A stretch of DNA of 64,000 nucleotides from Rhodobacteraceae bacterium F11138 (GTDB lineage: Bacteria > Pseudomonadota > Alphaproteobacteria > Rhodobacterales > Rhodobacteraceae), in contig JAEKDP010000001.1 of NCBI GenBank assembly GCA_016521575.1, positions 248,001 through 312,000 on the forward strand, read 5' to 3'. The position numbers and the translations under genes are program-made. Position 1 is the stretch's first letter, and each line of letters opens with the position of its first letter. The notes under the pieces were generated by a model. That model was given only the letters and a program-made list of their open reading frames with translations, was not told the DNA's origin and ran no database searches. Shown one piece after another: positions 6,944 to 64,000 of the stretch.

Positions 6944-6952
6944 AAGTTTCTC

Positions 6953-7441
6953 CTAGTTCAGTACAAATTCCATGATCAGAAGATCACGAATCCGACCCTT
7001 GCCGACCACGATCTGCACGCGGCGCAACATCTGCGCACGCAAGCGGGTCAGGGCCAAAGGATCTTCGAAATCTTCCAACCGGAGTGCTCTGAGATAGCTG
7101 TTCAGGACATCCACGATTCGTGGCAGCACATGCTCGACATCCGATTGATGGGCCGAAACAACTTCGAGCTGCGCGCGAAATCTCAGATGCTGGACATGTT
7201 GCCCGCCGGTCAACGATATTAGAATGGGCTCGATTTCAACAAACGCGATATCTGGCAATGCTTCCACATGGTCGGAAGAAGCGGCTGTCAGATCCGCGTC
7301 CCCATGCGATGACAACAGGCCCGAAGCCACTGCATAGAACCCGCCACCGGCCCCCAAAAGAGCAAGTACGAGCCCCAGAATCATGGGCAGTTTCTTGGAC
7401 TTGGCCGGTTCTACGGGCGGCTCGGCTACAGCATCGGACAT
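6953..7441 (-). CDS. fliL: Flagellar basal body-associated protein FliL
   Basis: About 162 residues from the ATG at 7441. FliL is a single-pass inner-membrane protein that surrounds the stator and supports torque. A Lys-rich cytoplasmic head is followed by a Gly/Ala membrane segment (PMILGLVLALLGAGGGFYAV) and a periplasmic domain ending in IRDLLIMEFVLN, typical of FliL C-termini. An ATG at 7474 is also in frame, but its GGG lies only two bases upstream; the start at 7441 has GGGGA at better spacing. It is the first gene of the minus-strand arm, divergent from fliF. Confidence 0.9.
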   Translation of the reverse strand: MSDAVAEPPVEPAKSKKLPMILGLVLALLGAGGGFYAVASGLLSSHGDADLTAASSDHVEALPDIAFVEIEPILISLTGGQHVQHLRFRAQLEVVSAHQSDVEHVLPRIVDVLNSYLRALRLEDFEDPLALTRLRAQMLRRVQIVVGKGRIRDLLIMEFVLN

Positions 7442-7487
7442 GGTGGTCCCCATCGTTTCGTTGAGCTTCTTCATAACCCTGCAGGAA

Positions 7488-7502
7488 CTAACCGATTGTT
7501 AA
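7488..7502. promoter_or_regulatory. Candidate CtrA box between fliL and fliF
   Basis: The sequence CTAA-N7-TTAA (TTAA-N7-TTAG on the minus strand) differs by one base from the CtrA consensus TTAA-N7-TTAA. CtrA controls motility genes in many Rhodobacteraceae. The site lies between the two divergent flagellar arms, upstream of both likely starts. One near-match in an AT-richer spacer can arise by chance. Confidence 0.4.
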
Positions 7503-7562
7503 GGCCAATCGACCAAACATGGCGGAACGTTGGCAGAACGTCGACGATACGGAGAGGACATC

Positions 7563-9182: not shown

Positions 9183-9781
9183 TGGCAATTTCGCATCTGC
9201 TCGAAGATTTCGCGACGACGGATACCGACAACGAACCCTTGCAACTGATGAGCGAGGACGGCCTTGAAGACCTTCGCCTGGCCTCGTTCGAACAGGGATA
9301 TACCGCCGGCTGGGACGATGCGGTTCGCGCCCACCTGGAGGATCAGTCCCGAATCGCGGGGGCCCTGGGCAACAATCTGGAGGATCTGTCCTTTACCTAT
9401 CAGGAAGCGCTCGTCCAGATGATGACATCCGTCGAGCCGGTGTTCCGAGGGCTGATCGAAACCGTATTGCCCGAGGCGCTGATGCAGAGCGTGGGCGAGC
9501 AGATCGTTCAGCAATGCTGTGAAATGACCATGGGACAGGTCGCGCAGCCGGTGTCCTTGCTGGTGCCGCCAGGGGCCGGCCAGGCCATTCGCCCCGCGCT
9601 CGAACGCAACCTGTCCATGAAAGTCGACATTGTCGAAAGCGATGAGATGGGGCCAGGGCAGGTCTGCCTGAAGGTCGGCAATCGCGAGCGCGAGATCGAT
9701 TGCGGGCAGCTTCTGGCGACCCTGCGCACCGCGATCGATGCATTCTTCCACGACACAGCAAAGGCGACTCTTCATGGATAA
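9182..9781 (+). CDS. fliH: FliH-like flagellar assembly protein
   Basis: 199 residues. FliH regulates the export ATPase FliI and links it to the C-ring. The sequence has an N-terminal segment with GYTAGWDDAV, a helical middle, and a C-terminal domain with LVPPGAGQAI and a final acidic and hydrophobic stretch, matching the FliH/YscL layout. Similarity to named FliH proteins is modest, so the call leans on its place between fliF and fliN and its length. It overlaps fliF by one base and fliN by eight. Confidence 0.75.
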   Translation: MAISHLLEDFATTDTDNEPLQLMSEDGLEDLRLASFEQGYTAGWDDAVRAHLEDQSRIAGALGNNLEDLSFTYQEALVQMMTSVEPVFRGLIETVLPEALMQSVGEQIVQQCCEMTMGQVAQPVSLLVPPGAGQAIRPALERNLSMKVDIVESDEMGPGQVCLKVGNREREIDCGQLLATLRTAIDAFFHDTAKATLHG

Positions 9782-10070
9782 TCAATCCGACACCAACAGC
9801 GTTCCCCCCGAACACTCCAATCCCTTCGTTTCGGTTCCGATCGAAATAACCGTATCGGTCGGCAAGGCCCGCCCGTTGATCCGCGATCTGGTCAACCTGG
9901 GAGAAAACGCCGTTCTGACCCTGGACAAACGGGTCGAGGACCCGGTTGAGCTGTTCGTCGGCGACCGTCTTGTTGCTCGTGGCCAACTGGAGGAACTGGG
10001 TGGCGATCAGGCCGGGCAACTGGCGGTCAGGTTGACCGAAATCGCCGATTTCCGGAACGGTTTGGGATGA
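9774..10070 (+). CDS. fliN: Flagellar switch protein FliN
   Basis: 98 residues from the ATG at 9774; the frame extends 12 codons further upstream but inside fliH. The single SpoA domain (about residues 20-95) has the FliN hallmarks IEITVSVGKARPLIRDLVNL and VELFVGDRLVARGQL. FliN is part of the C-ring with FliG and FliM and takes part in switching and export-substrate docking. Its stop overlaps the fliP start as ATGA, so the four genes fliF-fliH-fliN-fliP are tightly coupled. Confidence 0.93.
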   Translation: MDNQSDTNSVPPEHSNPFVSVPIEITVSVGKARPLIRDLVNLGENAVLTLDKRVEDPVELFVGDRLVARGQLEELGGDQAGQLAVRLTEIADFRNGLG

Positions 10071-10813
10071 AATTCCCATACGGGCTTGCGCTGGCGCTGG
10101 CTTTAGCCATCGGCGCCACACTACTGCCGCAGGCTGCACTCGCACAGGAAATGACTCTGTCGCTGGGCGATGGGGGGTCGATCTCGGCGCGGTCAATCCA
10201 GCTGATACTGCTGATTACCGTGCTCAGCCTCGCGCCGGGGCTGGCGATCATGATCACCTGTTTTCCCTTTCTCGTGACAGTATTGGCGATCCTGCGTCAG
10301 GCCATCGGCTTGCAGCAGTCGCCGCCGAACATGCTGATCGTCAGTCTTGCGCTTTTTCTGACCTATTTCGTCATGGAGCCGGTCTTTACCGAGGCCTGGG
10401 ACGTGGGCATCAGCCCGCTGATGAACGAAGAGATTGATATTGAAACCGCGCTGGGACGCGCCTTGGAACCGTTCCGTGTGTTCATGGCTGCCCGGCTGGA
10501 TCCCGATACGTTCGGTGCCATGGCAGAGCTGCGACCAGATGCCGCCACGATCCAGTCGGGTCCGGACGCACCACTGTCGGTCCTGGTGCCCAGCTTCCTG
10601 CTTTCGGAAATCGCCCGCGCATTTCAGATCGGTTTTCTGGTGTTTCTCCCCTTCCTAATCATCGATCTTGTCGTCGCGGCGGTCCTGATGTCGATGGGCA
10701 TGATGATGGTTCCTCCGGCAATTGTTTCGCTTCCGTTCAAGTTGGCCTTTTTCGTGGTTGCGGATGGCTGGAGCTTGATCGCCAGCGCGCTTGTGCGAAG
10801 CTATTTTCCATAA
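10067..10813 (+). CDS. fliP: Flagellar type III export gate protein FliP
   Basis: 248 residues. A cleavable signal peptide ends at AALAQ (about residue 26), as in classical FliP. Conserved segments are MITCFPFLVTVLAILRQAIG, SPPNMLIVSLALFLTYFVM and a C-terminal block with AFQIGFLVFLPFLIIDLVVA and MGMMMVPPAIVSLPFKL. FliP with FliQ and FliR forms the core export gate; those partners are not seen here. It is the last gene of the plus-strand arm and is followed by an 11-bp inverted repeat. Confidence 0.95.
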   Translation: MKFPYGLALALALAIGATLLPQAALAQEMTLSLGDGGSISARSIQLILLITVLSLAPGLAIMITCFPFLVTVLAILRQAIGLQQSPPNMLIVSLALFLTYFVMEPVFTEAWDVGISPLMNEEIDIETALGRALEPFRVFMAARLDPDTFGAMAELRPDAATIQSGPDAPLSVLVPSFLLSEIARAFQIGFLVFLPFLIIDLVVAAVLMSMGMMMVPPAIVSLPFKLAFFVVADGWSLIASALVRSYFP

Positions 10814-10823
10814 ATATGCGGCC

Positions 10824-10857
10824 GTCTGTTCAACGTCAGGCGCGGGGTTGAACAGAC
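10824..10857 (+). terminator. Inverted repeat after fliP
   Basis: GTCTGTTCAAC (10824-10834) and GTTGAACAGAC (10847-10857) are perfect 11-bp complementary arms around a 12-base loop, 11 bases after the fliP stop. There is no clear T-run after it, so it may be a terminator, an RNA end-protecting hairpin or an operator. Confidence 0.5.
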
Positions 10858-10996
10858 TGTATTCATGCGCTGACATCCACAGGCCCGGCGGTATCGTGCC
10901 ACGTTGATTTCTCTGGCGCAGACCCTAGGCTAAGCATAGCCTGTACGCCGATGGAGGGCTGCACCACAGACAGTCCCGCTTTGACCCGAGGATTCG

Positions 10997-11875
10997 ATGT
11001 CCGAAATTCGCGACCTGAAACTGTTGGTCTCCCTGGCGCATCACAAGCATTTTTCCAGGGCGGCGGACGATTGCGGCATTTCGCAGCCGGCTTTTTCGGC
11101 TCGTATCCGCAAGATGGAGCACGAATTCGCCATCCCTCTGGTGCGCCGCGGCAACAAGTTCATCGGCTTCACCCGCGAGGGCGAAGTGGTTCTGAAATGG
11201 GCACGACGTCTGCTGAACGACGCCGAAGGGATGCGCCAGGAAATCGATGCCCTGCGCGGCAACCTGAGCGGCAAACTGGTGGTTGGCACCATCCCGACCG
11301 CTTTGCCCTTTGCGGCTTTGGTTTCCTCGCAATTGCGGGCGGCCCATCCGGATCTGTCACTGGAGCTGCAGTCGTTGTCTTCGCGCCAGATCGAAATCCG
11401 GTTGAACGACTATTCCCTGGATGCCGGTATAACCTATGTTCAGGGCGCAGGCCCCGACACGATTGAACGGCTCTATGACGAAAGCTATGTCCTGATCGCA
11501 CCGGACCACCTGGCGCCGCGCCAGACCGGTCAGGCCACCTGGGCCGAAGCGGCGCAGTTGCCTTTGTGCCTGTTGACGCCGGACATGCGCAATCGCCAAT
11601 TCGTGGACGACGTATTTCGCCGCATCGGCGTTCGCCCGACCGTGGTGATGGAAGCAAACGGCTTCACGGCCGTTCTGGTACAGGTCGCAGGCGGAAACGC
11701 GGCGACAATTGCGCCCAAATTCGTCGCCGAAACCTATTTTTCAGCCCGGGATTCAGTCAAACTGGAGCTGATCGAACCCGAAGTAACCCAGGCCATTGGC
11801 CTCACAATCAAAGAACAGACCCTGGTGCCGCCGATCATCACCGCCTTCCGAAAGGCGGTGCGAAAGTCCCTGTAG
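10997..11875 (+). CDS. LysR-family regulator of the formate dehydrogenase genes
   Basis: 292 residues. The N-terminal winged helix-turn-helix (about 5-65) has FSRAADDCGISQPAFSARI, followed by the LysR effector-binding domain (GKLVVGTIPTALPFAALVSS). GAGGA precedes the ATG. It lies directly upstream of and in the same direction as the fds genes, a common arrangement for a formate dehydrogenase regulator in this group. That target is inferred from position; the ligand is not known from the sequence. Confidence 0.88.
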   Translation: MSEIRDLKLLVSLAHHKHFSRAADDCGISQPAFSARIRKMEHEFAIPLVRRGNKFIGFTREGEVVLKWARRLLNDAEGMRQEIDALRGNLSGKLVVGTIPTALPFAALVSSQLRAAHPDLSLELQSLSSRQIEIRLNDYSLDAGITYVQGAGPDTIERLYDESYVLIAPDHLAPRQTGQATWAEAAQLPLCLLTPDMRNRQFVDDVFRRIGVRPTVVMEANGFTAVLVQVAGGNAATIAPKFVAETYFSARDSVKLELIEPEVTQAIGLTIKEQTLVPPIITAFRKAVRKSL

Positions 11876-11975
11876 GGCCGCCATCATAAGCAAAACAAAT
11901 GACGCGTTCGAGAATCGTGATTTGATTGAATGACATAATTCTGGAAAACAGACTCGATCAAGCGGAGTGTGGCAA

Positions 11976-13667
11976 ATGAACGTTTTGAACGCAGAGATGG
12001 GAGTTTGGAAGAGCGGCCGGGGTCGCGGTCGTGTTACTCCGAAGGGGCGTCAGTATGAGGATGACGCGCTTGCTACGGTTCGGGATGTGCTTGGGGATCG
12101 TCCCCGTCGGCGGGATTTGCTGATTGAGCATCTGCACTTGATTCAGGACCGGTTCGGGCATCTTGGGGCGGCGCATTTGCGGGCGTTGGCCGAGGAAATG
12201 GGTCTGAGCCAGGCCGAGGTATACGAGGTTGCGACGTTTTATGCCCATTTCGACGTGGTCAAGGAGGGCGAGACCCCGCCGCCGGCGCTGACCATCCGGG
12301 TCTGCGACAGCCTGTCCTGCGAGATGGCCGGGGCGCAGCAATTGAAAACGGCGTTGCAGGACGGGCTGGATCCGGCGCAGGTTCGTGTGCTGCGCGCGCC
12401 CTGCATGGGGCGGTGTGACACGGCGCCGGTTCTGGAGATCGGCCACAACCACATCGACCATGCCACGCCTGACAAGGTTCAGGCGGCGATCGCTGCGGGG
12501 GACACCCATGCCCGCATACCCGAATACGAGACGCTTGCGGCCTATCGCGCGGGCGGCGGATATGAGCGTTTGCAGGCCTTTCGCGCCGGGGCCGACACGC
12601 CGGACGCGGTACAGGATCGGGTGCTGTCCTCGGGGCTGCGCGGTCTGGGCGGGGCCGGATTCCCATCGGGCAAGAAATGGTCCTTCGTGCGCGCCGAGAC
12701 CGGGCCACGCTATCTGGCGGTAAACGGGGACGAGGGCGAGCCTGGCACCTTCAAGGACCGCTTTTATCTGGAACGCACGCCGCATCTGTTTCTCGAAGGC
12801 ATGCTGATCGCCGCCTGGGCGGTGCAGGCGGACACCTGTTTCATCTACATGCGCGACGAATATCCGGCGGTGCTGGAGATCCTGCGCCGCGAGATCGCCT
12901 CGCTGGAGGACGCCGGGCTGGTGCCGGCCGGGTATATCGACCTGCGCCGCGGGGCCGGGGCCTATATCTGCGGCGAGGAAAGCGCGATGATCGAAAGCAT
13001 CGAGGGCAAGCGCGGCATTCCGCGCCATCGCCCGCCGTTTGTCGCCCAGGTTGGGGTGTTCGACCGTCCGACACTGGTGCACAATGTCGAGACGCTGCAT
13101 TGGGTGGCGCGGATCTGCCGCGAAGGCCCCGAAGTTCTGAGCGGAACCCAGAAGAACGGGCGCAAGGGGCTGCGGTCGTTTTCGGTGTCCGGGCGCGTCA
13201 AGGCCCCCGGCGTGCACCTGCTGCCGGCGGGTTCGACCATCACCGACATCATCGCGGCGGCGGGCGGCATGCTGGATGGGCATGAATTCAAGGCCTATCA
13301 GCCGGGCGGCCCTTCGGCGGGTCTGTTGCCGGCGCATATGGACGACATTCCGATGGATTTCGACACGCTGCAACCGCATGGCAGCTTTATCGGGTCGGCG
13401 GCCATCGTGATCCTGTCCGATCAGGACCGGGCGCGGGATGCGGCGCTGAACATGCTGAAGTTCTTTGAAGACGAAAGCTGTGGCCAGTGCACCCCCTGCC
13501 GGGTCGGATGCGAGAAGGCGGTCAAGCTGATGCAGCAGGACCGCTGGGATCAGCCGCTGCTGGACGAGCTGTGCCAGGCGATGGTCGACGCCAGCATCTG
13601 CGGTCTGGGGCAGGCGGCGCCGAATCCGATCCTGCTGACGATGAAACATTTTGCCGACGAGGTCTGA
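11976..13667 (+). CDS. fdsB: NAD-dependent formate dehydrogenase, fused gamma-beta subunit (FdsG-FdsB)
   Basis: 563 residues from the ATG at 11976 (AGCGGAG eight bases upstream; a GTG at 11967 is also in frame). Two normally separate proteins are joined. Residues about 1-155 are a NuoE/FdsG thioredoxin-like [2Fe-2S] domain with CDSLSC and CMGRCDTAP. The rest is NuoF/FdsB with the FMN/NADH segment GGAGFPSGKKW, GEESAMIESIEGKRG and the [4Fe-4S] site ESCGQCTPCRVGCEK. It passes electrons from formate to NAD+. It is followed 3 bases later by the catalytic subunit. Confidence 0.93.
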   Translation: MNVLNAEMGVWKSGRGRGRVTPKGRQYEDDALATVRDVLGDRPRRRDLLIEHLHLIQDRFGHLGAAHLRALAEEMGLSQAEVYEVATFYAHFDVVKEGETPPPALTIRVCDSLSCEMAGAQQLKTALQDGLDPAQVRVLRAPCMGRCDTAPVLEIGHNHIDHATPDKVQAAIAAGDTHARIPEYETLAAYRAGGGYERLQAFRAGADTPDAVQDRVLSSGLRGLGGAGFPSGKKWSFVRAETGPRYLAVNGDEGEPGTFKDRFYLERTPHLFLEGMLIAAWAVQADTCFIYMRDEYPAVLEILRREIASLEDAGLVPAGYIDLRRGAGAYICGEESAMIESIEGKRGIPRHRPPFVAQVGVFDRPTLVHNVETLHWVARICREGPEVLSGTQKNGRKGLRSFSVSGRVKAPGVHLLPAGSTITDIIAAAGGMLDGHEFKAYQPGGPSAGLLPAHMDDIPMDFDTLQPHGSFIGSAAIVILSDQDRARDAALNMLKFFEDESCGQCTPCRVGCEKAVKLMQQDRWDQPLLDELCQAMVDASICGLGQAAPNPILLTMKHFADEV

Positions 13668-13670
13668 GCC

Positions 13671-16436
13671 ATGAGCGAGACAACAGTCACCTTCACCCTG
13701 GATGGCGAAGAGGTCACCGCCGAGGCGGGTCTGACGATCTGGGAAGTCGCCCACGGACGCGGACTGAAGATCCCGCATCTGTGTCACAAACCGGCGCCGG
13801 GCTACCGTCCGGACGGCAATTGCCGCGCCTGCATGGTCGAGATCGAGGGCGAACGGGTGCTGGCCGCAAGCTGCATCCGCGAACCGGCCCCGGGCATGGT
13901 GGTCAAAACGGCCACGACACGGGCCCAAAGCGCGCGCAAGATGGTGATGGAACTGCTGGTGGCCGATCAGCCCGCGCAGGATGTGGCGCATGACAAATCC
14001 AGCCATCTGTGGGACATGGCGGCGCTGAACGGCGTCGACTCCAGCCGTTTCCCCAAACTGGAAGACGGCCGGATCCCGCTGCTGGACGACAGCCATGTGG
14101 CGATGTCGGTCAACCTGGATGCCTGCATCCAGTGCGGCCTGTGCGTGCGCGCCTGCCGCGAGGTCCAGGTCAACGACGTGATCGGCATGTCGGGTCGCGG
14201 CCATGATGCGTATCCGACCTTCGATTTCGCCGACCCGATGGGGGACAGCACCTGCGTGGCCTGCGGCGAATGCGTGCAGGCCTGCCCGACCGGGGCGTTG
14301 ATGCCCTCCAGCGTGGTCGATGCGGACCAGATCGGCGACCGGGCCGATTTCGACAAGGCCGTCGACAGTGTCTGCCCGTTCTGCGGCGTCGGCTGTCAGG
14401 TCAGTCTCAAGGTCAAGGATGGCCGGGTCAAATATGTCGAGGGTATCAACGGCCCCGCCAACGAGGGCCGACTGTGCGTCAAGGGCCGGTTCGGCTATGA
14501 TTACATCCACCACCCGCACCGGCTGACCAAGCCGATGATCCGGCGCGCCGACGCGCCGCCCAAGGGGCTGAACGTGGATCCCGGCGATCTGTCGACCCAC
14601 TTCCGCGAAGCCAGCTGGGACGAGGCGCTGGATTTTGCCGCCGGGGGCATGGCAAAGCTGGCCCAGGCCCATGGCGGGCGGGCGGTGGCCGGGTTTGGAT
14701 CCGCCAAATGCACCAACGAAGAAGCCTATCTGTTCCAGCGCCTGATCCGCGAAGGGTTCGGGCACAACAACGTCGATCACTGCACCCGGCTGTGTCACGC
14801 CTCTTCGGTGGCGGCGCTGATCGAGAATGTTGGCTCGGGTGCAGTGACGGCAACGTTCAACGAGATCGAAAACGCCGATGTGGCGATCGTGATCGGTGCC
14901 AACCCGGTCGAAAACCACCCGGTGGCGGCGACCTATTTCAAACAGTTCACCAAACGCGGCGGCAAGCTGATCGTGATGGATCCGCGCGGCGTCGGATTGC
15001 GCCGGTTCGCCAGCCACATGCTGCAGTTCCGCCCCGGCGCGGATGTGGCGATGCTGAACGCGATCATGAACGTGATCGCCACCGAAAAGCTGTACGACCA
15101 GCAATACATCGACACCTGGACCGAAAACTGGGAGGCCGAGAAGGCCCATCTGGCCGACTTCACCCCCGAAGCGATGGCGCCGATCTGCGGCATCGAACCC
15201 GAAATGCTGCGCGACGTGGCCCGCACCTTTGCCGGGGCGAAATCGGCAATGATCTTCTGGGGCATGGGGGTCAGCCAGCATATCCACGGCACCGACAATT
15301 CCCGCTGCCTGATCAGCCTGGCCCTGATGTGCGGCCAGATCGGCCGTCCCGGCACCGGGCTGCATCCGCTGCGCGGTCAGAACAACGTTCAGGGCGCGTC
15401 CGATGCCGGCCTGATCCCGATGTTTTTGCCCGACTACCAGAGCGTCGCCGATGACGGCGTGCGCCGCGCGTTCACCGATGTCTGGGGCAGCGAGGATTTC
15501 AGCGCCACGCCGGGGTTGACCGTCACCGAGATCGTCGATGACATCCACGCCGGACACATCAAGTCGATGTATATCCTGGGCGAAAACCCGGCCATGTCGG
15601 ACCCGGATGTGGACCACGCCCGCGAGGCATTCGCGTCGCTTGAACATCTGGTGGTGCAGGACATCTTCCTGACCGAAACGGCGAATTACGCCGATGTGCT
15701 GCTGCCGGCCTCGACGCTGTATGAAAAGACCGGAACCGTCTCCAATACCAACCGGCAGGTGCAGATGGTGCGCCCTGCCGTCAGCCCGCCGGGCGACGCG
15801 CGCGAAGACTGGTGGATCGAAGTCGAACTGGCCAGACGCCTGGGGCTGGACTGGGGTTTCACCCACCCCGGCCAAGTCTATACGGAAATGGCGAAAAACA
15901 TGCGCAGCCTGGACAATATCACCTGGTCGCGGCTGCAGAACGAGGCAGTGACCTACCCCAGTCTCAGCCCCGAGGACCCGGGCCAGGCGGTGGTGTTCGG
16001 CGACGGCTTTCCGCGCCCGGACGGCCGCGCCCGGTTCACCCCGGCCAAGGTGATCGCCCCCGACGAGGCCCCGGATGACGAATACCCGATGATCATGACC
16101 ACGGGGCGGCAGCTGGAACACTGGCACACCGGCTCGATGACCCGGCGCGCCAGCGTGCTGGACGCGGTGGAACCCGAAGCCAACGCCTCGCTGCATCCAA
16201 AAACCCTGCGCAAGCTCGGGGTGACGCCCGGGGACATGATCGCCCTGCAAACCCGCCGCGGCACGATCGAGATCATGGCCCGCGCCGACCGCGCCGTCGC
16301 CACCGACATGGTCTTCGTCCCCTTCGCCTATGTCGAAGCCGCCGCCAACATCCTCACAAACCCCGCTATCGACCCATACGGCAAAATCCCCGAATTCAAG
16401 TTCGCCGCATGCAAGGTCCAAAAAGCAAAATCATAA
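13671..16436 (+). CDS. fdsA: Formate dehydrogenase catalytic alpha subunit (Mo-bis-MGD)
   Basis: 921 residues, full length. It oxidises formate to CO2 in the cytoplasm. The N-terminus is NuoG-like: [2Fe-2S] Cys at about 38, 51, 54 and 68; two ferredoxin clusters at C152-x2-C-x2-C-x3-C and C195-x2-C-x2-C-x3-C; then C235PFCGVGC for a further [4Fe-4S]. The Mo-ligand position is Cys375 followed by His376 in CTRLCHASS, encoded by TGT, so this is the Cys and not the selenocysteine form. The C-terminal MopB-binding domain is present. No fdsC or fdsD follows within the window. Confidence 0.95.
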   Translation: MSETTVTFTLDGEEVTAEAGLTIWEVAHGRGLKIPHLCHKPAPGYRPDGNCRACMVEIEGERVLAASCIREPAPGMVVKTATTRAQSARKMVMELLVADQPAQDVAHDKSSHLWDMAALNGVDSSRFPKLEDGRIPLLDDSHVAMSVNLDACIQCGLCVRACREVQVNDVIGMSGRGHDAYPTFDFADPMGDSTCVACGECVQACPTGALMPSSVVDADQIGDRADFDKAVDSVCPFCGVGCQVSLKVKDGRVKYVEGINGPANEGRLCVKGRFGYDYIHHPHRLTKPMIRRADAPPKGLNVDPGDLSTHFREASWDEALDFAAGGMAKLAQAHGGRAVAGFGSAKCTNEEAYLFQRLIREGFGHNNVDHCTRLCHASSVAALIENVGSGAVTATFNEIENADVAIVIGANPVENHPVAATYFKQFTKRGGKLIVMDPRGVGLRRFASHMLQFRPGADVAMLNAIMNVIATEKLYDQQYIDTWTENWEAEKAHLADFTPEAMAPICGIEPEMLRDVARTFAGAKSAMIFWGMGVSQHIHGTDNSRCLISLALMCGQIGRPGTGLHPLRGQNNVQGASDAGLIPMFLPDYQSVADDGVRRAFTDVWGSEDFSATPGLTVTEIVDDIHAGHIKSMYILGENPAMSDPDVDHAREAFASLEHLVVQDIFLTETANYADVLLPASTLYEKTGTVSNTNRQVQMVRPAVSPPGDAREDWWIEVELARRLGLDWGFTHPGQVYTEMAKNMRSLDNITWSRLQNEAVTYPSLSPEDPGQAVVFGDGFPRPDGRARFTPAKVIAPDEAPDDEYPMIMTTGRQLEHWHTGSMTRRASVLDAVEPEANASLHPKTLRKLGVTPGDMIALQTRRGTIEIMARADRAVATDMVFVPFAYVEAAANILTNPAIDPYGKIPEFKFAACKVQKAKS

Positions 16437-53206: not shown

Positions 53207-53551
53207 TCACGCAGGCATCTTCAGTTTCTGTGCTGGCGTCATCCCGCCGTTGCCCATGTTCGGACGCTCGTTGTTGTAGGGCCAGAGCCACGCGGTGGCA
53301 ATCTGCTGCACCTCGTCGATGCTTTCGAATATCCAGCCATTCATGCCCGACCGTCCGGTTGTAGCATTCGACAAAAGCATTCTGCTGTGGTTTTCCGGCT
53401 GAATATGGACCAAGGCGATGCCCTTGTTTTCGGCCCATTCCATAAGGGTGCCGCTGATATATTCCGGACCGTTGTCGACTCGAATGGTTCGCAGCGCACC
53501 GCGCCATGCGATGATCTGGTTCAACGCCCTGCCGGCGCGTTCCGCGGGTAG
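53207..53551 (-). mobile_element. 3' fragment of an IS3-family (IS407/IS51-like) transposase gene
   Basis: The minus-strand frame from about 53551 begins at LPAERAGRALNQIIAWRG and holds IRVDNGPEYISGTL (one catalytic Asp) and the C-terminal WLWPYNNERPNMGNGGMTPA of IS3 OrfB proteins. The block normally read PGKPQQNAFVECYNRTVGHEW is in another frame. A one-base and a nearby eight-base deletion relative to the remembered family consensus would explain this and restore the frame. The 5' part of the transposase and OrfA are missing. Confidence 0.85.
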
Positions 53552-53745
53552 CGTGAACCCAAAATGATCGAGCAGCAGATCAAGCTTTACCTGAGCGGGA
53601 CCATCAGCCGCGCTACGCTGCACGAGAGCCTTCAAAAGGGTAAGATCGTCCGCGCGGGTCGCTCCTGGGACGATAAAAAGGATATGATCTTCGAGCACGG
53701 AGGCGATACTTCCCCCGATCATGGGCACGCGCGAGGTGGGAGCTA

Positions 53746-54392
53746 TCAGGGTATGAGGTTTGCTCCCAATGAAAACGCCCCACCAATGGCAGCGCAAAGC
53801 GCCAAGACTGCCGACCAAAGTTGAGCGGGCTTGAGAGAGCCGATCAACTGAGCCACTGACATCTTCTCGATGTTCTTTTCCTCTTTGCTGCGATTTCCAT
53901 TTGGCTTGGTGCCGCTGACCTTGGTCTTCCAGCTTGCTAATACGCCATTAAACTCGGTCGAGTTCAGGTAGTCCTTATTCAATGGAACCGTTTGAACATA
54001 CCAGTCATATCCGGGTTCGAGCAGGCCTTCGTGCTTGACGCCTTCCTCGACAATAACCAATAGAGGTAGTCCACGACTGTAAGCCATTGTTGCCTCAATC
54101 TGGTTCCAAGGCGTCGCAAGCACAGTGTTAGAAAGAGCTTTCTCTTTATCTCCACCACGACGTTCAGTTCCCGTTGGAAAATGTGTGCGTTCGAGTGCAA
54201 GCACAATGGTGCCGACGCAACGATCCATCAGGGTTTCTACTGTCTTTAGGGGGCGTCGACTGAGAAAGTATTTCGGCCAACCGTATTGGGTACAAGTCCT
54301 TCTGCTCTAAGCCGAGTTTCTACGGCTTGGACAAATTCTTCTTGTGCGTCATTGGCCGTACCACCGACACTTAGAAATACGTCCTTGCCCAT
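53746..54392 (-). pseudogene. Frameshifted effector-like protein with C-terminal membrane segment
   Basis: An ATG at 54392 with GGAGG upstream opens a frame for 48 residues (KDVFLSVGGTANDAQEEF, then EGLVPNTVGRNTFSV) and stops at TAA 54248-54246. The adjacent frame continues the same protein in good register (LKTVETLMDRCVGTIVLALE) to 53746. Together they give about 215 residues: a beta-alpha nucleotide-binding-like domain with WNQIEATMAYSRGLPLLVIV, and a C-terminal hydrophobic helix (PAQLWSAVLALCAAIGGAF). The break falls on a run of five C, so it could be a mutation, a sequencing error or programmed slippage. The fold reminds me of TIR/SLOG-type defence effectors; not recognised by name. Confidence 0.6.
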
Positions 54393-57438: not shown

Positions 57439-58252
57439 GGTGATGTCACGTTAACCGCTGTTCGATTGCTCTTGCCTGGAATAGGACGTAGACGGCGCCG
57501 ATGAATTCATCGCCTATCAGCTACAAGCGTCACCGATTTCCCCCTCAGATCATCGCCCATGCAGTGTGTTATGCGTTCGTTTCAATCCAAGCCTGCGCGA
57601 AGTTGAAGAGATGCTGCTGCAGCGTGGGATCGGCACGTCTTACGAGACTGTCCAGCGTTGGGTCATAAAGTTCAAGCCGTAGATCGCTCGCAAATTGCGA
57701 CAGCGACAAGACCGTCCCGGCGATGTCTGGCATCTGGCTGAGGTTGTCGTGAGAATTTCTGGTCGCAAGCATTGGCTTTGGCGCGCGGTCGATCAACATG
57801 GTGTTGTGCTGGACGAAATACTCCAACCGAAACGGGATAAAGGCGCAGCAAAACGGCTGTTGCGCCGCCTGACTAAGCGTCTTGGTTTTGTTCCCAAGCG
57901 GATCATCACGGACAAACTGCGCTCATATGGCGCTGCCAAGCGAGAGGTCGCGCCGGGGTTGGATCATTGGTCGCACAAGGGCCTCAACAACCGCGCCGAA
58001 AATAGCCGTCTACCGTTTCGAAAGCGAGAACGGACGATGCAAGGCCATCGGTCTCCGGGCGGGTTGCAAGGGTTTGTGGCTATCTGTTCAGCCGTTCGGA
58101 ATTGCTTCAGTGTTCCAACTCGCCGTCGCTTCGCCTTGAAAATCAGATATCACCGTCTCGAAGCGTTTGACGCCTGGATTGCCGCCACTGGAGCAACTTG
58201 AAATCTGAACATCAGCGTTTCTTGGTGGGTTCAAAGTTAATGTGACAACACC
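57439..58252 (+). mobile_element. Dead IS6-family-like insertion sequence
   Basis: 814 bases bounded by imperfect terminal repeats, GGTGATGTCACGTTAAC on the left (57439-57455) and the reverse complement GGTGTTGTCACATTAAC on the right (58236-58252), 15 of 17 bases matching. The transposase inside is broken. The adjacent 8-base flanks differ, so no target duplication remains. It separates mtaB from the RpiR-led catabolic cluster. Confidence 0.82.
57501..58201 (+). pseudogene. IS6-family transposase, frameshifted and with a stop codon
   Basis: The start MNSSPISYKRHRFPPQIIAH is in one frame; LREVEEMLLQRGIGTSYETV follows in another, showing an indel near 57570. A TAG at 57680-57682 interrupts KFKP-IARKLRQRQ. 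The IS6 catalytic motif normally WHLDE reads WHLAE, so the first catalytic Asp is lost too. The later ITDKLRSYGAA and NNRAENSR blocks keep the second Asp and the Glu. Inactive by three independent changes. Confidence 0.88.
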
Positions 58253-58292: not shown

Positions 58293-59183
58293 CTATTCGA
58301 ACTCACCCAACTCTGAATGCAGCGCTTCCATCCGTTCCATATAGGTGCGGCTCGCCTTGCCAAGTTTGCGATAACTTTCGTAGGCGAGCAGGCGCAAGAC
58401 CGCTTGAACACCCGAATAGCTGTCGAAGATATGGGGCGTTTCCACCGGACATGTAATAATCCAACGTGCATATGCGGGAATGACACGGGCCGATGAGTCG
58501 GTGACTAGAAGAATTGGGACCTCGCGATCATGCATCAATTTCATATATTGTTTCAAAAGGCCCACAATACGCCGTAGACCAATGATCACGATGACATCTT
58601 CCGATCCTAAGTCTGATGTGCGTTCTGCTACTGTTTCGCCCGGTCCTGGCACGATCCGCGTGGCGCCCCGAAAATGCAGGAACTGAGTCCGGGCATAACT
58701 GGCCAAGAAATAGCTATTGCGGAACCCCATGAATACCAAGTTGCGCGCACCCACCAGCGCGTCGGTGATCTCGTTCATTTCGTCCGGTTTCAGCCCATTG
58801 AGTGCTTCGGTAAGATTGCGCACCTCTGCTTCGGCGAAACGGGACAGGAATGTATCATTCTCGACCTCGCCCTGATGGGGAGCAGCGGCAGATTGAAACA
58901 GCGGTGCGCCCCAGTTTCGCGCGTCTCTTGCTGCAATTCGCATTTCTTCGTAGTTGCCAAAGCCGGCCCGGCGCACAAAGCGCGTGATGGTGGCATTGGA
59001 CACTCCGGCAAGTCGCGCCAGCTCGGACGCCGCATAGACAGAAAGCTCTCCCGGCGATTCGAGGACAAGGTCCGCTACCTGTTTTTCCTGGGCACTGAAC
59101 TTGTCATACACCTTGTGAATGGCAGTGACTATTGACCCTTGGGGTCGGATATTTTTGTCATCCTTTTCAGGGGCCTGCGCCAA
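58293..59183 (-). CDS. RpiR/MurR-family regulator of the diaminopropionate cluster
   Basis: 296 residues from a TTG at 59183, chosen for AAGGAAG four bases upstream; the frame also opens at an ATG at 59261 without a ribosome site. N-terminal HTH_6 (ELARLAGVSNATITRFVRRA, about 55-75) and a C-terminal SIS domain (ARNLVFMGFRNSYFLASYAR to GLRRIVGLLKQYMKLMHDRE). SIS domains usually bind phosphosugars, but RpiR relatives also regulate amino-acid catabolism. Divergent from the lyase gene, with repeats between. Confidence 0.88.
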   Translation of the reverse strand: MAQAPEKDDKNIRPQGSIVTAIHKVYDKFSAQEKQVADLVLESPGELSVYAASELARLAGVSNATITRFVRRAGFGNYEEMRIAARDARNWGAPLFQSAAAPHQGEVENDTFLSRFAEAEVRNLTEALNGLKPDEMNEITDALVGARNLVFMGFRNSYFLASYARTQFLHFRGATRIVPGPGETVAERTSDLGSEDVIVIIGLRRIVGLLKQYMKLMHDREVPILLVTDSSARVIPAYARWIITCPVETPHIFDSYSGVQAVLRLLAYESYRKLGKASRTYMERMEALHSELGEFE

Positions 59184-59267
59184 TTTTCTTCCTTTCTCAG
59201 AATACGGGAATGAAAAATTATTTTCGTTGAAGTTGACATACAGAAAACTACGTATCAACATGATAAT

Positions 59268-59301
59268 TGATTTTCAAACGAGTGAAATCTGATTTTCAAA
59301 C
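59268..59301. promoter_or_regulatory. 12-bp direct repeat, likely RpiR operator
   Basis: TGATTTTCAAAC occurs at 59268-59279 and again at 59290-59301, 22 bases apart, two helical turns. A TGAAA word in between gives inverted TTTCA/TGAAA pairs, and a further GAAAA/TTTTC pair lies near 59211-59225. The repeats lie in the divergent spacer of the RpiR regulator and the lyase gene. Confidence 0.5.
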
Positions 59302-59429
59302 CGGAGAGGGTGACGTAACCATGCCATCGGGATCTGCTGTTTGGTTTATACCTCACACGGCCGCAGCGGCAGCGATGAAGCTCGCGCCCTGTCGATCGAG
59401 ATACTTCAAATAGCAAGAGGACGAGCACC

Positions 59430-60665
59430 ATGCGCATAAAAAATAATCTTGGCCAGGGCTGCGAGAACGAGCTGTTGATCAACGATCTGGCTGATCGTGA
59501 CGCAGCCTACGGGCAGGAGCAATCAGCCGTGTTAAATGACGCTGCCTTTGCACAGGCCCTGGAGACCATCACCGCCTGGCCCGGCTATGGGGCGACGCAG
59601 TTGGTCTCCTTGCCAGCATTGGCCAGACAGGCGCGTGTCACCAGCGTTCACTACAAGGATGAAGGCCGGCGTTTTGGGCTCGGTAGCTTCAAAGCGCTCG
59701 GGGGGGCGTATGCCGTGTCACAATTGTTGCGCCGCGAAGTGGCTCGGATCAAGTCTCTTCCTCTGCCGCCAATCAGGGAAATTCTGGACCGCAAACATGC
59801 AGATGTCATCGAGGGAACCACTGTTTGTTGCGCTACAGATGGCAATCATGGGAAATCGGTTGCCTGGGGGGCCCGGACCTTCGGCTGCAAATGTGTGATC
59901 TTCATTCATGAAACCGTCAGCGAAGGCCGCAAGCAAGCGATCGAAGCCTATGGCGCGCAGGTGATCCGTACCAAAGGCAACTATGACGAAAGCGTGCGTG
60001 AAGCGCAGGAAACCGCCACGCGTGAAGGATGGTTTGTAGTCTCTGATACGTCCTATCCGGGATATACCGAAGTGCCAAAGGATGTGATGCAGGGCTACGA
60101 GATCATGGCGGCCGAGGCCTGTGACGCGCTGGATGTGCCGCCGACCCATATCTTTCTGCAAACCGGAGTAGGGGGTATGGCTGCTGCTGTCGCAGCGCAT
60201 TTCAAACGCCGGTATGCGAGCGATAGACCGATGGTCGTTTTGGCCGATCCGGATAAATCTGCCTGTTGGCTCGAAAGTATCCGCCTGGGTGCACCAACCT
60301 CAGTGCATGGCGATCTTGATACGCTGATGGCGGGGCTTGCTTGTGGTGAGATCAGCCTTATTGCCTGGGACATCCTGCGGGAAACCGCTGATGCGGTTGT
60401 TTCGGTCGCTGATGAGGACGCGGTGGCACTGATGCGGCGCCTGGCCGATCCGGAAACGGGGGATCCCCTGATCGTCGCCGGTGAATCCGCCGTGGCAGGG
60501 CTGGCGGCGTTGCTGGGCTGCGCCGGGAACGATGAGGCGCGCAGAAAGCTCGGGCTTGATGAAAACGCGCGCATTCTGGTTTTTGGCACAGAAGGTGATA
60601 CCGATCCAGTGCTGTATAAGAAACTGGTTGGTTGCGAGGGCGATGCGGTGCGAGGTGCGGCATGA
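59430..60665 (+). CDS. dpaL: Diaminopropionate ammonia-lyase
   Basis: 411 residues, the usual length of DpaL/YgeX. Fold-type II PLP enzyme with the PLP-Lys in RRFGLGSFKALGGAYAV (about residue 78), the segment ATDGNHGKSVAWGARTFG and the Gly-rich loop LQTGVGGMAAAVAAHF. It splits 2,3-diaminopropionate to pyruvate and two ammonia. GAGGA precedes the ATG. Head of a unit with two N-carbamoyl hydrolases; stop overlaps the next start as ATGA. Confidence 0.93.
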   Translation: MRIKNNLGQGCENELLINDLADRDAAYGQEQSAVLNDAAFAQALETITAWPGYGATQLVSLPALARQARVTSVHYKDEGRRFGLGSFKALGGAYAVSQLLRREVARIKSLPLPPIREILDRKHADVIEGTTVCCATDGNHGKSVAWGARTFGCKCVIFIHETVSEGRKQAIEAYGAQVIRTKGNYDESVREAQETATREGWFVVSDTSYPGYTEVPKDVMQGYEIMAAEACDALDVPPTHIFLQTGVGGMAAAVAAHFKRRYASDRPMVVLADPDKSACWLESIRLGAPTSVHGDLDTLMAGLACGEISLIAWDILRETADAVVSVADEDAVALMRRLADPETGDPLIVAGESAVAGLAALLGCAGNDEARRKLGLDENARILVFGTEGDTDPVLYKKLVGCEGDAVRGAA

Positions 60666-61894
60666 TTGTCCAGATCAACCTTGACCGCCTCATGAGCCGG
60701 ATCATGGAATTGGGCAAGATCGGCGCTCTCGAAAAGGGCGGCGTTAAGCGGCTAGCGCTTACTGACGAAGACCGCATGGGCCGAGATCTTGTTTGTCGCT
60801 GGATGGCCGAAGCCGGCCTGACGGTGACGACCGACTTGATTGGCAACACCTGGGGGATCCGTGAAGGACGGGAAGATGATGCACCTGTCATAATGGGGTC
60901 CCATATCGACAGCGTGGCCACCGGTGGGCTTTATGACGGAGTGCTTGGTGTGTTGGCGGGGCTTGAGGTCATCGAGTCGCTGAATGATGCGGGCATTCCG
61001 ACCAAGCGTCCTGTCGGAATGGCCTTTTTCACCAACGAAGAAGGCGCACGATTTGCTCCGGACATGATGGGGTCGGGGGTCGCTCAGAAAGCGCTTGATC
61101 TCGACGAAATGCTGGCGGTGACCGGCATTGACGGCACGACCGTGCGCGAGGAGCTGAATCGGATCGGGTATGCCGGCACGGCGCCGGTGATGGCCCTTCG
61201 GCCGCATTGCTTTCTAGAACTTCACGTTGAACAGGGGCCGGTTCTGGAAAACGAGAACGTGGCAATTGGAGCGGTCACGGGGGTGCAAGGTATCTCTTGG
61301 ACCGAGTATGTGGTCGAGGGTCGGTCAAGCCATGCGGGAACAACTCCCATGACGATGCGCCGGGATGCGGGAGTCGTTGCCGCGCGCATTGCTGCCGAGG
61401 CCCGAGCCATTGCTGATGACTTTGGTGCACCGCAGGTAGCGACAGTAGGCATGTTCGAGTTGTCGCCGGGCCTTGTGAATGTTGTTCCCGAAAGGGCCAT
61501 GTTGACGGTGGATCTGCGGAACACCGACGATGCCCTGTTGCTTGATGCAGAAACGCGGCTGAATGCTTTCGCCGAGACAGTGGCTGCGGCTGAGGATTGT
61601 ACGCTCAGACGACGCAGTCTTGCGCGCTTTGCGCCCGTTGAATTCGATCAGGACCTGGTAGCGGCAGTTGAGGAACAGGCAAGTGCGCTTGGTCATACCG
61701 TACGACGGATGCCATCGGGGGCAGGGCATGACGCACAGATGTTCGCGCCAAACTGTCCGACAGCGATGATTTTTGTCCCGTCTCGCGACGGGCTGAGCCA
61801 CAACATCCATGAATTCACCGCACCCGAACAGATCGGAGCCGGCGTTGATGTCTTGATGCAGGTTGTTTTGAACGAGGCTGGCACCAGCCGGTAA
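60662..61894 (+). CDS. N-carbamoyl-L-amino-acid hydrolase/allantoate amidohydrolase-type M20 enzyme
   Basis: 410 residues from the ATG overlapping the dpaL stop. Zinc-site motifs of the HyuC/AllC group: MGSHIDSVATGGLYDGVLGV (His and bridging Asp), FFTNEEGARFAPDMMGSG and LELHVEQGPVLE. The dimerisation domain has SSHAGTTPMTMRRDAG. Members remove carbamoyl groups from N-carbamoyl-L-amino acids, allantoate or ureidoglycolate. Beside dpaL, a carbamoyl-diaminopropionate substrate is plausible; E. coli pairs ygeX with the M20 gene ygeY in a similar way. Confidence 0.87.
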   Translation: MIVQINLDRLMSRIMELGKIGALEKGGVKRLALTDEDRMGRDLVCRWMAEAGLTVTTDLIGNTWGIREGREDDAPVIMGSHIDSVATGGLYDGVLGVLAGLEVIESLNDAGIPTKRPVGMAFFTNEEGARFAPDMMGSGVAQKALDLDEMLAVTGIDGTTVREELNRIGYAGTAPVMALRPHCFLELHVEQGPVLENENVAIGAVTGVQGISWTEYVVEGRSSHAGTTPMTMRRDAGVVAARIAAEARAIADDFGAPQVATVGMFELSPGLVNVVPERAMLTVDLRNTDDALLLDAETRLNAFAETVAAAEDCTLRRRSLARFAPVEFDQDLVAAVEEQASALGHTVRRMPSGAGHDAQMFAPNCPTAMIFVPSRDGLSHNIHEFTAPEQIGAGVDVLMQVVLNEAGTSR

Positions 61895-61906
61895 GGAGTA
61901 AGTTAA

Positions 61907-62830
61907 ATGAAACGCAGGTTTATTGCCGCAGCGGCCCAACTCGGCCCGATCGCTAGGGACGAACCCCGCAGTTCAGCAGTTGCCCGGATGGTTGCCTTGA
62001 TGCGCGAAGCGCACGGGCGCGGCGCCGAGGTGGTGGTCTTTCCCGAACTGGCACTGACCACGTTCTTTTCACGTTGGTATACCGAGGATGATGCTGAAAT
62101 CGACTCCTGGTTTGAAACCGAAATGCCCAATGACGAAGTTCAGCCCTTGTTTGACGCTGCGCGTGACTTGGGGATCGGATTTTATCTAGGCTATGCGGAA
62201 CTGACGACGGAAGATGGCCGAAAACGCCGGTTCAACACGTCGATCATTGTCGACAGTACCGGCAAGATCGTTGGAAAATATCGCAAAATTCATCTACCCG
62301 GGCACCGGGACAACGAACCGTGGCGCGCATTCCAGCACTTGGAGAAACGCTATTTCGAACATGGCAATATGGGCTTTCCTGTGTTCGAAGCATTCGGTGG
62401 CAGGATGGGGATGTGCCTGTGCAATGACCGTCGCTGGCCTGAAACCTTTCGTGTGTTGGGGTTGCGCGGCGCCGAAATGGTGATGTTGGGCTACAACACG
62501 CCACTGCATTATCCGCCAGCCCCGGAACATGACCACCTGCAGTATTTTCACAACCACCTTTGCATGCAGGGCAGCGCCTACGCCAACGGGATATGGGTGA
62601 TCGGAACGGCAAAGGCTGGCAGGGAAGAAGGCTGTGACCTGATTGGTGGTAGCTGCATCATTGCCCCTACGGGTGAAATCGTGGCCCAGGCTCAGGGTGT
62701 GGGCGACGAAGTCATCACCGCAGAAGTGGATTTGGACCGCTGTCGCGAACTCCGAGACAATGTCTTCAATTTTTCCCTGCACCGTGAACCTGAAGATTAC
62801 AGCCCGATCTGTGCGTCCAAAGACCGGTGA
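61907..62830 (+). CDS. N-carbamoyl-D-amino-acid hydrolase (nitrilase superfamily)
   Basis: 307 residues, the length of Agrobacterium D-carbamoylases, which it resembles throughout as I recall them (VVFPELALTTFFSRW, RRFNTSIIVDSTGKIVGKYR, NDRRWPETFRVLGLRGAEMV). The catalytic triad is Glu in FPELA (about 46), Lys in YRKIHLPG (about 127) and Cys in MCLCNDRRW (about 172). It releases CO2, NH3 and a D-amino acid from a carbamoyl D-amino acid. GGAG precedes the start, 12 bases after the M20 gene. Confidence 0.92.
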   Translation: MKRRFIAAAAQLGPIARDEPRSSAVARMVALMREAHGRGAEVVVFPELALTTFFSRWYTEDDAEIDSWFETEMPNDEVQPLFDAARDLGIGFYLGYAELTTEDGRKRRFNTSIIVDSTGKIVGKYRKIHLPGHRDNEPWRAFQHLEKRYFEHGNMGFPVFEAFGGRMGMCLCNDRRWPETFRVLGLRGAEMVMLGYNTPLHYPPAPEHDHLQYFHNHLCMQGSAYANGIWVIGTAKAGREEGCDLIGGSCIIAPTGEIVAQAQGVGDEVITAEVDLDRCRELRDNVFNFSLHREPEDYSPICASKDR

Positions 62831-62870
62831 TGGAACGCCATTCAATTACAAGCCAACGGAGGAGAATAAA

Positions 62871-63950
62871 ATGAAAAATCGGATGACCCGTCGAAGTCTG
62901 CTGCAGACGCTCTGCGGGGCGACTGCGCTTGGATCCTTGGGCGCAATGCCATCGCTCGCAGGATCAAATGAATTCGTCTGGATGACGTGGGAAAACTTGG
63001 CCAAGGATGACTATCTGGCCAAACTTCTAGCCGCTTCACCGATCGACCTTCGCAAGAACTTTATCGGCACGGATGACGAACAATTCGCTAAACTCCGAGC
63101 CGGGGGGGCCTCATCGGTCGATTTGATCACGCCGGGGTTGGACAAGGTGGAATTCTATGTCGAATCCGGGCTGCTTCAGCCAGTCGATCTGGATCGCGTG
63201 CCAAATGCCGCCGCACTTTATGACACGTTCCGCAATACGCCGCTCGGCAAGAAGAACGGTGAAACCTATGGCGTTCCCTTCTATTGGGGCATCAACCCCA
63301 TTGTTTACCGTGCCGACCTGATGGACGGAGAACCCGATTGGTCGGTGTTCTTTGAAGGCGACAAGCATGCCGGGAAACTGGCTATGCGTGATTACGCCTT
63401 GGAGGGCATCATGATCGCGGCGATGTACCTGGGTATTCCACAGGACAGGATGTTCCACATGGATGACGCCGAATTGGGCGAAGTGAAGAAGGCCCTTATC
63501 GCGCAGAAGAAAAAGCTTCGCACCTATTGGAACTCGATTAGTGATCTGACCAACCTGTTTGCTTCTGGCGAAGTGGTCTGTGCCTTTTCCTGGGTGCCCC
63601 CCTATCACGAGTTGCGTGCGCGCGGCCTTGAAATGGGCATGGCGCTACCTGAGGCCGGGGTTATCGGCTGGTGTGATACAGTTGCCGTTCCTGCCGGTGT
63701 CGAAGGGCAGAAGCTGGAGGTCGCACATGATCTGATCAACTACCTGCTGGGCCCGGTATACGGCGAAAAACTGGCTTATGGTGGCCCCTATGCCACGAGC
63801 ACGTCACTCATTCGCGATCAGTTGCCGCTTGACCAGCAAGAAAAAATCTTCGTCAAGGATTTGTCGATCATGGATACTTTCGTCTGGAAGCAAAACCCAC
63901 CACGATACAACGAATGGGTGGCGCTTTGGAATGAAGTAAAGGCCAGCTGA
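62871..63950 (+). CDS. PotD-like extracellular solute-binding protein of an ABC importer
   Basis: 359 residues from the ATG at 62871 with GGAGGAG upstream; the longer open frame runs back into the hydrolase gene. Twin-arginine-like signal peptide (TRRSLLQTLCGATALGSLGA, about 5-32). The mature protein has the family 1/polyamine-type layout (LITPGLDKVEFYVESGLLQP, VPFYWGINPIVYRADL, and SGEVVCAFSWVPPYHELRAR). It should bind the substrate fed to the preceding enzymes; cationic or ureido amino acids fit the family range. Confidence 0.85.
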   Translation: MKNRMTRRSLLQTLCGATALGSLGAMPSLAGSNEFVWMTWENLAKDDYLAKLLAASPIDLRKNFIGTDDEQFAKLRAGGASSVDLITPGLDKVEFYVESGLLQPVDLDRVPNAAALYDTFRNTPLGKKNGETYGVPFYWGINPIVYRADLMDGEPDWSVFFEGDKHAGKLAMRDYALEGIMIAAMYLGIPQDRMFHMDDAELGEVKKALIAQKKKLRTYWNSISDLTNLFASGEVVCAFSWVPPYHELRARGLEMGMALPEAGVIGWCDTVAVPAGVEGQKLEVAHDLINYLLGPVYGEKLAYGGPYATSTSLIRDQLPLDQQEKIFVKDLSIMDTFVWKQNPPRYNEWVALWNEVKAS

Positions 63951-63951
63951 G

Positions 63952-64000
63952 ATGCAGTCGATTCCCAATAAGCAGCCTTTAAATGGAGGGCGTAGGCCCT
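63952..64000 (+). CDS. Start of next gene, probably the ABC importer's membrane or ATPase subunit (cut by window)
   Basis: An ATG one base after the binding-protein stop opens a frame of 16 codons (MQSIPNKQPLNGGRRP) to the end. Its position after a binding-protein gene suggests the next transporter component. Too short to identify. Confidence 0.35.
   Translation, partial: MQSIPNKQPLNGGRRP

Follow-up and report, generated by a model that had tools for sequence, protein, structure and literature searches.

A conserved operon for diaminopropionate ammonia-lyase, an M20 hydrolase and a D-carbamoylase as a candidate route for degradation of carbamoylated diaminopropionate

Which compound is broken down when a diaminopropionate ammonia-lyase (DpaL) is encoded together with two putative decarbamoylating hydrolases and a transporter? 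The question is raised by positions 58293 to 64000 of a 64,000-nucleotide stretch of the genome of Rhodobacteraceae bacterium F11138 (this whole stretch is referred to as the window), in which an RpiR regulator gene is divergent from genes for, in this order, DpaL, an M20 hydrolase, an N-carbamoyl-D-amino-acid hydrolase (DCase) and a PotD-like binding protein. As the initial annotation of this DNA had proposed, the cell probably takes up a carbamoylated amino acid, decarbamoylates it and cleaves the product with DpaL, and it is likely that the substrate belongs to the carbamoylated 2,3-diaminopropionates (DAP). Within this class we tentatively favor 2,3-diureidopropionate (DUPA) or, for loci that also carry a hydantoinase, ureidomethyl-hydantoin (UMH); the operon would import this compound and degrade it completely. 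The five genes were as previously described, with corrected starts:

58293..59261, minus strand, RpiR/MurR-type regulator, HTH_6 and SIS domains above the Pfam cut-off, divergent from the operon
59430..60665, plus strand, DpaL, above the cut-off of model PRK08206
60662..61894, plus strand, M20 hydantoinase/carbamoylase-family hydrolase (TIGR01879), ATGA overlap with DpaL
61907..62830, plus strand, DCase, nitrilase superfamily, phmmer matches to solved DCases
62871..63950, plus strand, PotD-like periplasmic binding protein (SBP_bac_8), signal-peptide-like N terminus judged by eye
63952..64000, plus strand, 5' start of an ABC ATPase gene, within which the window ends

Judged by model scores and by a lysine and two aspartates, the window lyase is a member of the DpaL/YgeX family. 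It scored above the cut-offs of PRK08206 (490 bits; cut-off, 276) and TIGR01747 (296 bits; cut-off, 274), although below that of the narrower TIGR03528 (329 versus 532 bits), and K88, D137, and D206, which align with K77, D120, and D189 of YgeX and which we take to be catalytic, were kept in 43 of 43 aligned rows. The literature that we searched (most subscription journals lying outside it) yielded nothing useful on DpaL active-site residues. Escherichia coli YgeX converts DAP to pyruvate and two ammonia. Its activities on L- and D-DAP are equal, according to PMC12507026.

The closest PDB relatives of the nitrilase-type enzyme, matched over the full length by phmmer (E of ~1e-129), were the N-carbamoyl-D-amino-acid hydrolases 2ggk, 1fo6, and 1erz. 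E47, K127, and C172, presumably the Glu-Lys-Cys triad, and H144, R175, and R176, which presumably contact the substrate, were kept in 43 rows, save one row gapped at E47, and the enzyme is by these features a DCase. Members of this family act on alpha-ureido acids and are broad on D-alpha-ureido acids; albizziine, put forward earlier as a possible substrate, carries a free alpha-amino group and is therefore unlikely to be hydrolyzed by DCase. The same family is found in Agrobacterium-type D-hydantoinase/D-carbamoylase clusters, and a hydantoinase likewise accompanies some of the loci described below, but the operon adds DpaL, which sets the side chain.

The probable ATG start of the M20 gene at 60662 overlaps the DpaL stop codon as ATGA, and the translational coupling of the two genes suggested in the initial annotation is therefore plausible. 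The M20 enzyme scored 411 bits against TIGR01879 (cut-off, 204), and ten presumed metal- or substrate-site residues, including those that we take to be metal ligands, were kept in 43 of 43 rows, which places it in the N-carbamoyl-L-amino-acid hydrolase/beta-ureidopropionase family. Its top PDB matches (5thw, 5i4m, and 4wjb) are entries of unassigned function, followed by an N-carbamoyl-beta-alanine amidohydrolase (8c46; 320 bits) and an N-carbamoyl-L-amino-acid hydrolase (8apz; 308 bits). Allantoate amidohydrolases (AllC) share the M20 family, and the window enzyme scored above two NCBIfam subfamily models of that name (464 versus 452 and 426 versus 399 bits), but it was far under the AllC equivalog cut-off (263 versus 598 bits) and matched a solved allantoate amidohydrolase at 190 bits versus 320 bits for the N-carbamoyl-beta-alanine enzyme. 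It was ~44% identical to a PydC-like paralogue in its own genome that adjoins PydA- and PydX-type genes (labels from domain make-up) and that strongly matches both N-carbamoyl-beta-alanine (672 bits) and N-carbamoyl-L-amino-acid (697 bits) hydrolases. Despite this likeness to reductive pyrimidine catabolism (PydA/PydB/PydC), the operon lacks a dihydropyrimidine dehydrogenase and has a lyase and a D-carbamoylase.

The grouping of the three enzymes exceeds chance. Loci of named genomes were taken as the best 80 of at least 596 confirmed DpaL-profile relatives, a sample that leans to close kin and to which all counts out of 80, and those of three-enzyme loci, refer; a hydrolase was counted as linked when it lay within 10 kb of DpaL at an identity of at least 45% (M20) or 50% (DCase). 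Both hydrolases were linked in 42 loci, DCase only in 11, M20 only in 4 (2 incomplete), and neither in 23 (5 incomplete), so that conservation of the set elsewhere, by which the initial annotation had proposed to judge its own reading, was borne out. The order DpaL, M20, DCase on one strand was kept in 41 of 80, with ABC genes intervening between M20 and DCase in two of these (L213 and L223), and the pairwise distances of the three enzymes were correlated (r of 0.74 to 0.86, against a maximum of 0.20 in 999 permutations), a correlation partly due to the species history that they share. By title or tree label, the records came from Roseobacteraceae, Paracoccaceae, Stappiaceae, Pleomorphomonadaceae, Burkholderiaceae, Comamonadaceae, Alcaligenaceae, Zoogloeaceae, and Halomonadaceae, families that we take to represent Alpha-, Beta-, and Gammaproteobacteria. 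The cluster also stood in two metagenome-assembled genome records titled Bordetella parapertussis (L228 and L238), names that look doubtful.

Within the family Rhodobacteraceae, DCase was found at E of 1e-60 in 56 of 394 sampled genomes, own genome included, and 40 stretches around such matches were examined, three of them own-genome paralogues. DpaL was near DCase in 13 of the 20 stretches with the closer DCases (63 to 80% identity), with M20 between them in 7 of these (one partial); of the other 20 stretches, whose DCases were more distant, none had DpaL. Outside the family, L157 and L159 had the regulator, TRAP genes, DpaL, M20, and DCase together. Of 13 neighborhoods of less similar DpaLs (43 to 52% identity), 12 had neither M20 nor DCase, the remaining one (L164) having M20. 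On the DCase tree the DpaL label changed 7 times versus a shuffled mean of 23.6, most of the rows having been found via DpaL, and DpaL-linked and hydantoinase-linked rows stood on largely, not wholly, separate branches. On the DpaL tree the linked or neither label changed 11 times, and linkage to the hydrolases would therefore have been gained or lost repeatedly; the row nearest to the window (L174) was unlinked. DCase was present at E of 1e-60 on 49 plasmid records and DpaL at E of 1e-90 on 14, and on 5 of these 14 (three Cupriavidus and two Rhizobium) DpaL and DCase lay, by coordinates, within ~4 kb. M20 is annotated between them on both Rhizobium plasmids; the Cupriavidus records examined carry no annotation there.

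The closest described route is the reductive urate pathway published in 2025 and recently found in gut anaerobes, of which DUPA is an intermediate (PMC12507026 and PMC12990295). The operon could be the hydrolytic counterpart of the lower arm of this pathway, supplied by an importer. In that arm (HyuA, YgeW or UacY, YgeY, and YgeX in E. coli and Clostridioides difficile), according to PMC12507026, UMH is cleaved by HyuA and yields albizziin with HyuA and UacY or YgeW, and albizziin yields pyruvate with YgeY and YgeX; the hydantoinase used there is of the D type, D-stereochemistry is suggested, and the UacY of C. difficile, to which removal of the 2-ureido group is assigned, is homologous to the D-aminoacylase family. 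According to the commentary PMC12990295, two studies disagree on the order in which the ureido groups are removed, and an R configuration has been proposed; it lists both points as open. The operon shares with this arm the use of YgeX/DpaL on DAP after ureido removal, but has a nitrilase-type D-carbamoylase and a HyuC-type M20 rather than YgeW/UacY and YgeY, has its own importer, and has no carbamate kinase among the eight operon and regulator genes. The earlier statement that no described pathway has exactly this set held for the enzymes, in that within the literature searched no paper was recognized as describing the DpaL-M20-DCase set and none joined diaminopropionate with an N-carbamoyl-D-amino acid, but not for the route, since a 2025 publication describes a path, built on other enzymes, that leads from ureido-DAP through YgeX/DpaL to pyruvate. 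Two papers of the literature searched mention DUPA.

In the DUPA route, the RpiR regulator would control the operon and the ABC transporter would take up the substrate. DCase, by the known chemistry of its family, would hydrolyze the 2-ureido group of D (R) DUPA to D-albizziin, in place of UacY/YgeW, and M20, in place of YgeY, would hydrolyze the remaining 3-ureido group, a beta-ureidopropionate-like bond, to DAP. DpaL would convert DAP of either configuration to pyruvate and two ammonia, as E. coli YgeX does, for a predicted yield of pyruvate, 4 ammonia, and 2 CO2 per DUPA. The marker of the urate pathway, SsnA, had its best match in the own genome at 142 bits versus a cut-off of 455.5, was above the cut-off in none of the 40 cluster genomes scanned (31 with three enzymes and 9 with DpaL and DCase, out of 53 named loci that have DCase), and no YgeY-family match was found in the own genome at E of 1e-50; the compound would therefore have to be imported. 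A YgeY-type hydrolase was found in 0 of 20 genomes (the own genome and 19 cluster genomes picked for having no YgeY-type gene in the locus). A complete reductive urate pathway in the own genome was rejected on the SsnA score, no search having been made for YgfK, XdhD, or YgeW.

We favor DUPA or UMH because of the enzyme families, the conserved catalytic residues, the recurrent three-enzyme order, the clustering of DpaL with the closer DCases and on the DCase tree, and the closeness of DpaL and DCase on plasmids, and also because of additional enzymes near the core. In four genomes (Seohaeicola, Rhizobium sp. ACO-34A, R. daejeonense, and, by title and with a partial match, Marinicella sp. W31) a hydantoinase ends the Pot-type transporter operon. 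In Seohaeicola (L094, same record as L227) it starts directly after permC and scored above PRK13404 (695 versus 647 bits) and TIGR02033 (516 versus 393 bits). The plasmids of ACO-34A and R. daejeonense are annotated with a dihydropyrimidinase, two permeases, an ATPase, a binding protein, a regulator (hypothetical in ACO-34A; RpiR by Pfam), DpaL, a Zn-dependent hydrolase, and an N-carbamoyl-D-amino-acid hydrolase, and the layout in Marinicella sp. W31 was similar, the hydantoinase match spanning only residues 141 to 469 of 473. Two Roseibium loci had a hydantoinase on the far side of an Opp operon, ~8 kb away from DpaL; the own genome has four hydantoinases above cut-off, all elsewhere than in the operon. 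Molybdenum hydroxylase, cytochrome, and aromatic lyase genes of ACO-34A were rejected as cluster parts and treated as a separate unit, since they lie on the opposite strand and are not annotated in the R. daejeonense stretches, whose gene table is incomplete. A YgeY-type gene was present in at least 8 of 80 loci (Cupriavidus, Achromobacter, Pandoraea, and Alcaligenes), and the YgeY-YgeX pair makes pyruvate from albizziin (PMC12507026); 3 of 3 scanned proteins were above the PRK13004 cut-off (407, 370, and 365 versus 321 bits). A D-aminoacylase-type gene, from the family to which UacY is homologous (PMC12507026), was present in at least 10 of 80 loci, 7 of them among the 42 three-enzyme loci. 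The protein of L214 matched solved D-aminoacylases at E of 1e-160, and PRK09061 was the best NCBIfam model for L214, L195, and L238, yet below its cut-off.

Regulator and importer genes were counted in the 42 three-enzyme loci. An RpiR-like gene (tblastn, at least 24% identity) lay within 9 kb in 34. Importers, for which a locus may count repeatedly, comprised a TRAP DctM like that of L040 in 9 loci, a Pot-type permease like that of the window in 5, an amino-acid ABC binding-protein cluster in at least 8, an MFS permease in at least 6, and an Opp-type binding protein in 7 (at least 20% identity; some may be unrelated). TRAP identity was checked by Pfam for L040 and for one protein each of L047 and L049. 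The gene caller, a simple composition score, overlooks some genes and puts others in the wrong frame (DpaL was called in 73 of 81 loci), and the counts of YgeY-type, D-aminoacylase-type, MFS, and amino-acid ABC genes are therefore lower bounds.

Several observations weigh against DUPA. If SsnA is lacking, DUPA must come from outside, and we know of no environmental pool of it. The named PDB relatives of M20 comprise both N-carbamoyl-beta-alanine and N-carbamoyl-L-amino-acid hydrolases, and the sequence fixes no regiochemistry. DpaL was without a nearby hydrolase in 23 of 80 loci (5 of them incomplete), including the DpaLs nearest to that of the window (L174, 76% identity; L175, 69%; L177, 67%); L154, L155, and L156, with DpaLs 60 to 70% identical to it, also lacked M20 and DCase, and L158 had M20 and no DCase. 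The neighbors of the unlinked DpaLs were rejected as a clue to substrate: the ten proteins scanned from L174, L175, and L177 fell into unrelated families, pyruvate dehydrogenase, transhydrogenase, and sulfatase among them, so that these DpaLs look solitary. In 11 of 80 loci DpaL and DCase had no M20 next to them, and these loci would need a paralogue elsewhere (41 to 44% identity, present in 6 of 6 such genomes searched) or, in some, an amidase; some of the M20-less loci had an amidase-signature gene close to DpaL or DCase, and several of the TRAP type showed no second hydrolase. A hydantoinase related to that of the cluster at at least 55% identity was found in 9 of 28 cluster genomes (own genome included) and none at E of 1e-60 in 11 of 28, a patchy distribution which makes an open-chain ureido acid the likelier common substrate. 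The three YgeY-type proteins scanned missed the second YgeY model, TIGR03526 (212 to 232 versus 321.5 bits), and where a YgeY-type gene is present, M20 would be redundant for the 3-ureido group that this gene favors.

The initial annotation had let the two hydrolases serve opposite enantiomers, which is one reading of the pair, the other being that they remove the two ureido groups of one DUPA. On the former reading, racemic N2-carbamoyl-DAP, from 5-(aminomethyl)hydantoin or similar, would be divided between DCase for the D enantiomer and M20 for the L enantiomer, and DpaL would accept both resulting DAP isomers. The M20-less loci favor this, as they would handle the D form only, and the N-carbamoyl-L-amino-acid hydrolases among the M20 relatives, the hydantoinases linked in some loci, and the equal activity of YgeX on both isomers agree with it; the YgeY-type genes point instead to a 3-ureido or other N3 group. 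We know of no natural source of aminomethyl-hydantoin or N2-carbamoyl-DAP, and on balance we regard this substrate as unlikely, if worth retaining. A role for the lyase chiefly on some other beta-substituted D-amino acid, D-serine for example, is quite improbable; the operon would in that case serve to degrade N-carbamoyl-D-serine, formed from 5-hydroxymethylhydantoin, or a comparable product of a D-hydantoin. DpaL-type enzymes have a side activity on D-serine, DCases are broad, and a second own-genome cluster (L065) pairs a pyridoxal phosphate (PLP) lyase with DCase and a hydantoinase, but the window lyase is above the PRK08206 equivalog cut-off, though it missed TIGR03528, and the aspartates aligned with YgeX D120 and D189 were both kept in 43 of 43 rows. 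Equally hard to favor is a general scavenging of N-acylated or N-carbamoylated DAP from natural products, in which importer, D-carbamoylase, D-aminoacylase, and amidase would serve no single substrate: partner hydrolases and importers do vary between loci, but distant genera share the DpaL-M20-DCase core in the same order, which suggests one main substrate.

It is possible, though rather doubtful, that a widespread guild of aerobes lives off ureido compounds derived from urate: these bacteria would import the DUPA or UMH that anaerobic urate degraders release and finish its breakdown with unrelated or distantly related hydrolases, thereby completing the reductive urate pathway by cross-feeding. 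Ureido-diaminopropionates are known from plants (albizziin) and from the gut urate route of 2025, and the operon suggests that they are a wider nitrogen source, in which each DUPA would give four ammonia. A testable role is thereby offered for a gene set conserved in many genera of Proteobacteria and on plasmids, and the D-carbamoylase and M20 are other enzymes to be considered for the order and stereochemistry of ureido removal, the question listed as open in PMC12990295.

DCase genes were also seen in other surroundings. In the own genome, the second cluster (L065, C1:450000-468000; 6662-15639) has, besides the PLP lyase, D-carbamoylase, and hydantoinase genes, dehydrogenase-like, TRAP-type, and Asp/Glu/hydantoin-racemase-like genes (three labels by eye). 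L066 (C13:1-17000, on a 22.8-kb contig) has a D-hydantoinase, a D-carbamoylase, two sub-cut-off SsnA-like amidohydrolases, and adjoining ABC ATPases, and in L064 (C1:575500-592500) a cytosine/purine/hydantoin-type permease gene stands beside D-carbamoylase and D-hydantoinase genes, with an M20 gene divergent. A neighborhood that recurs in the family (L069, L070, L072, L073, and L077) has DCases of a divergent branch beside an ABC transporter and an SsnA-like amidohydrolase, 33 to 35% identical to the L066 protein; DpaL is absent there.

The binding-protein gene likely starts at 62871, preceded by GGAGGAG, and the operon runs past the window end with the ATPase and two permeases (own-genome stretch L007, 6953-9716; permeases, 8032-9716), one of which was marginally below the Pfam cut-off (26.3 versus 26.4 bits), and is then followed by a transposase. 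The flanking open reading frames (ORFs) were as follows:

57695..58201, plus strand, IS240-type transposase ORF by Pfam, left flank
L007 9960-10781, rve-type transposase ORF by Pfam, right flank

The G+C content of positions 58293 to 64000 was 0.559; other 5.7-kb stretches of the window had a mean of 0.608 (standard deviation, 0.018; lowest, 0.559), and the other searched genome of the genus (G106, one genome) had no DCase at E of 1e-60. The low G+C content, the flanking transposase ORFs, and the DCase-free G106 hint at, and do not demonstrate, horizontal acquisition. A further transposase-like ORF, judged by eye, lies left of the operon at 53207-53818.

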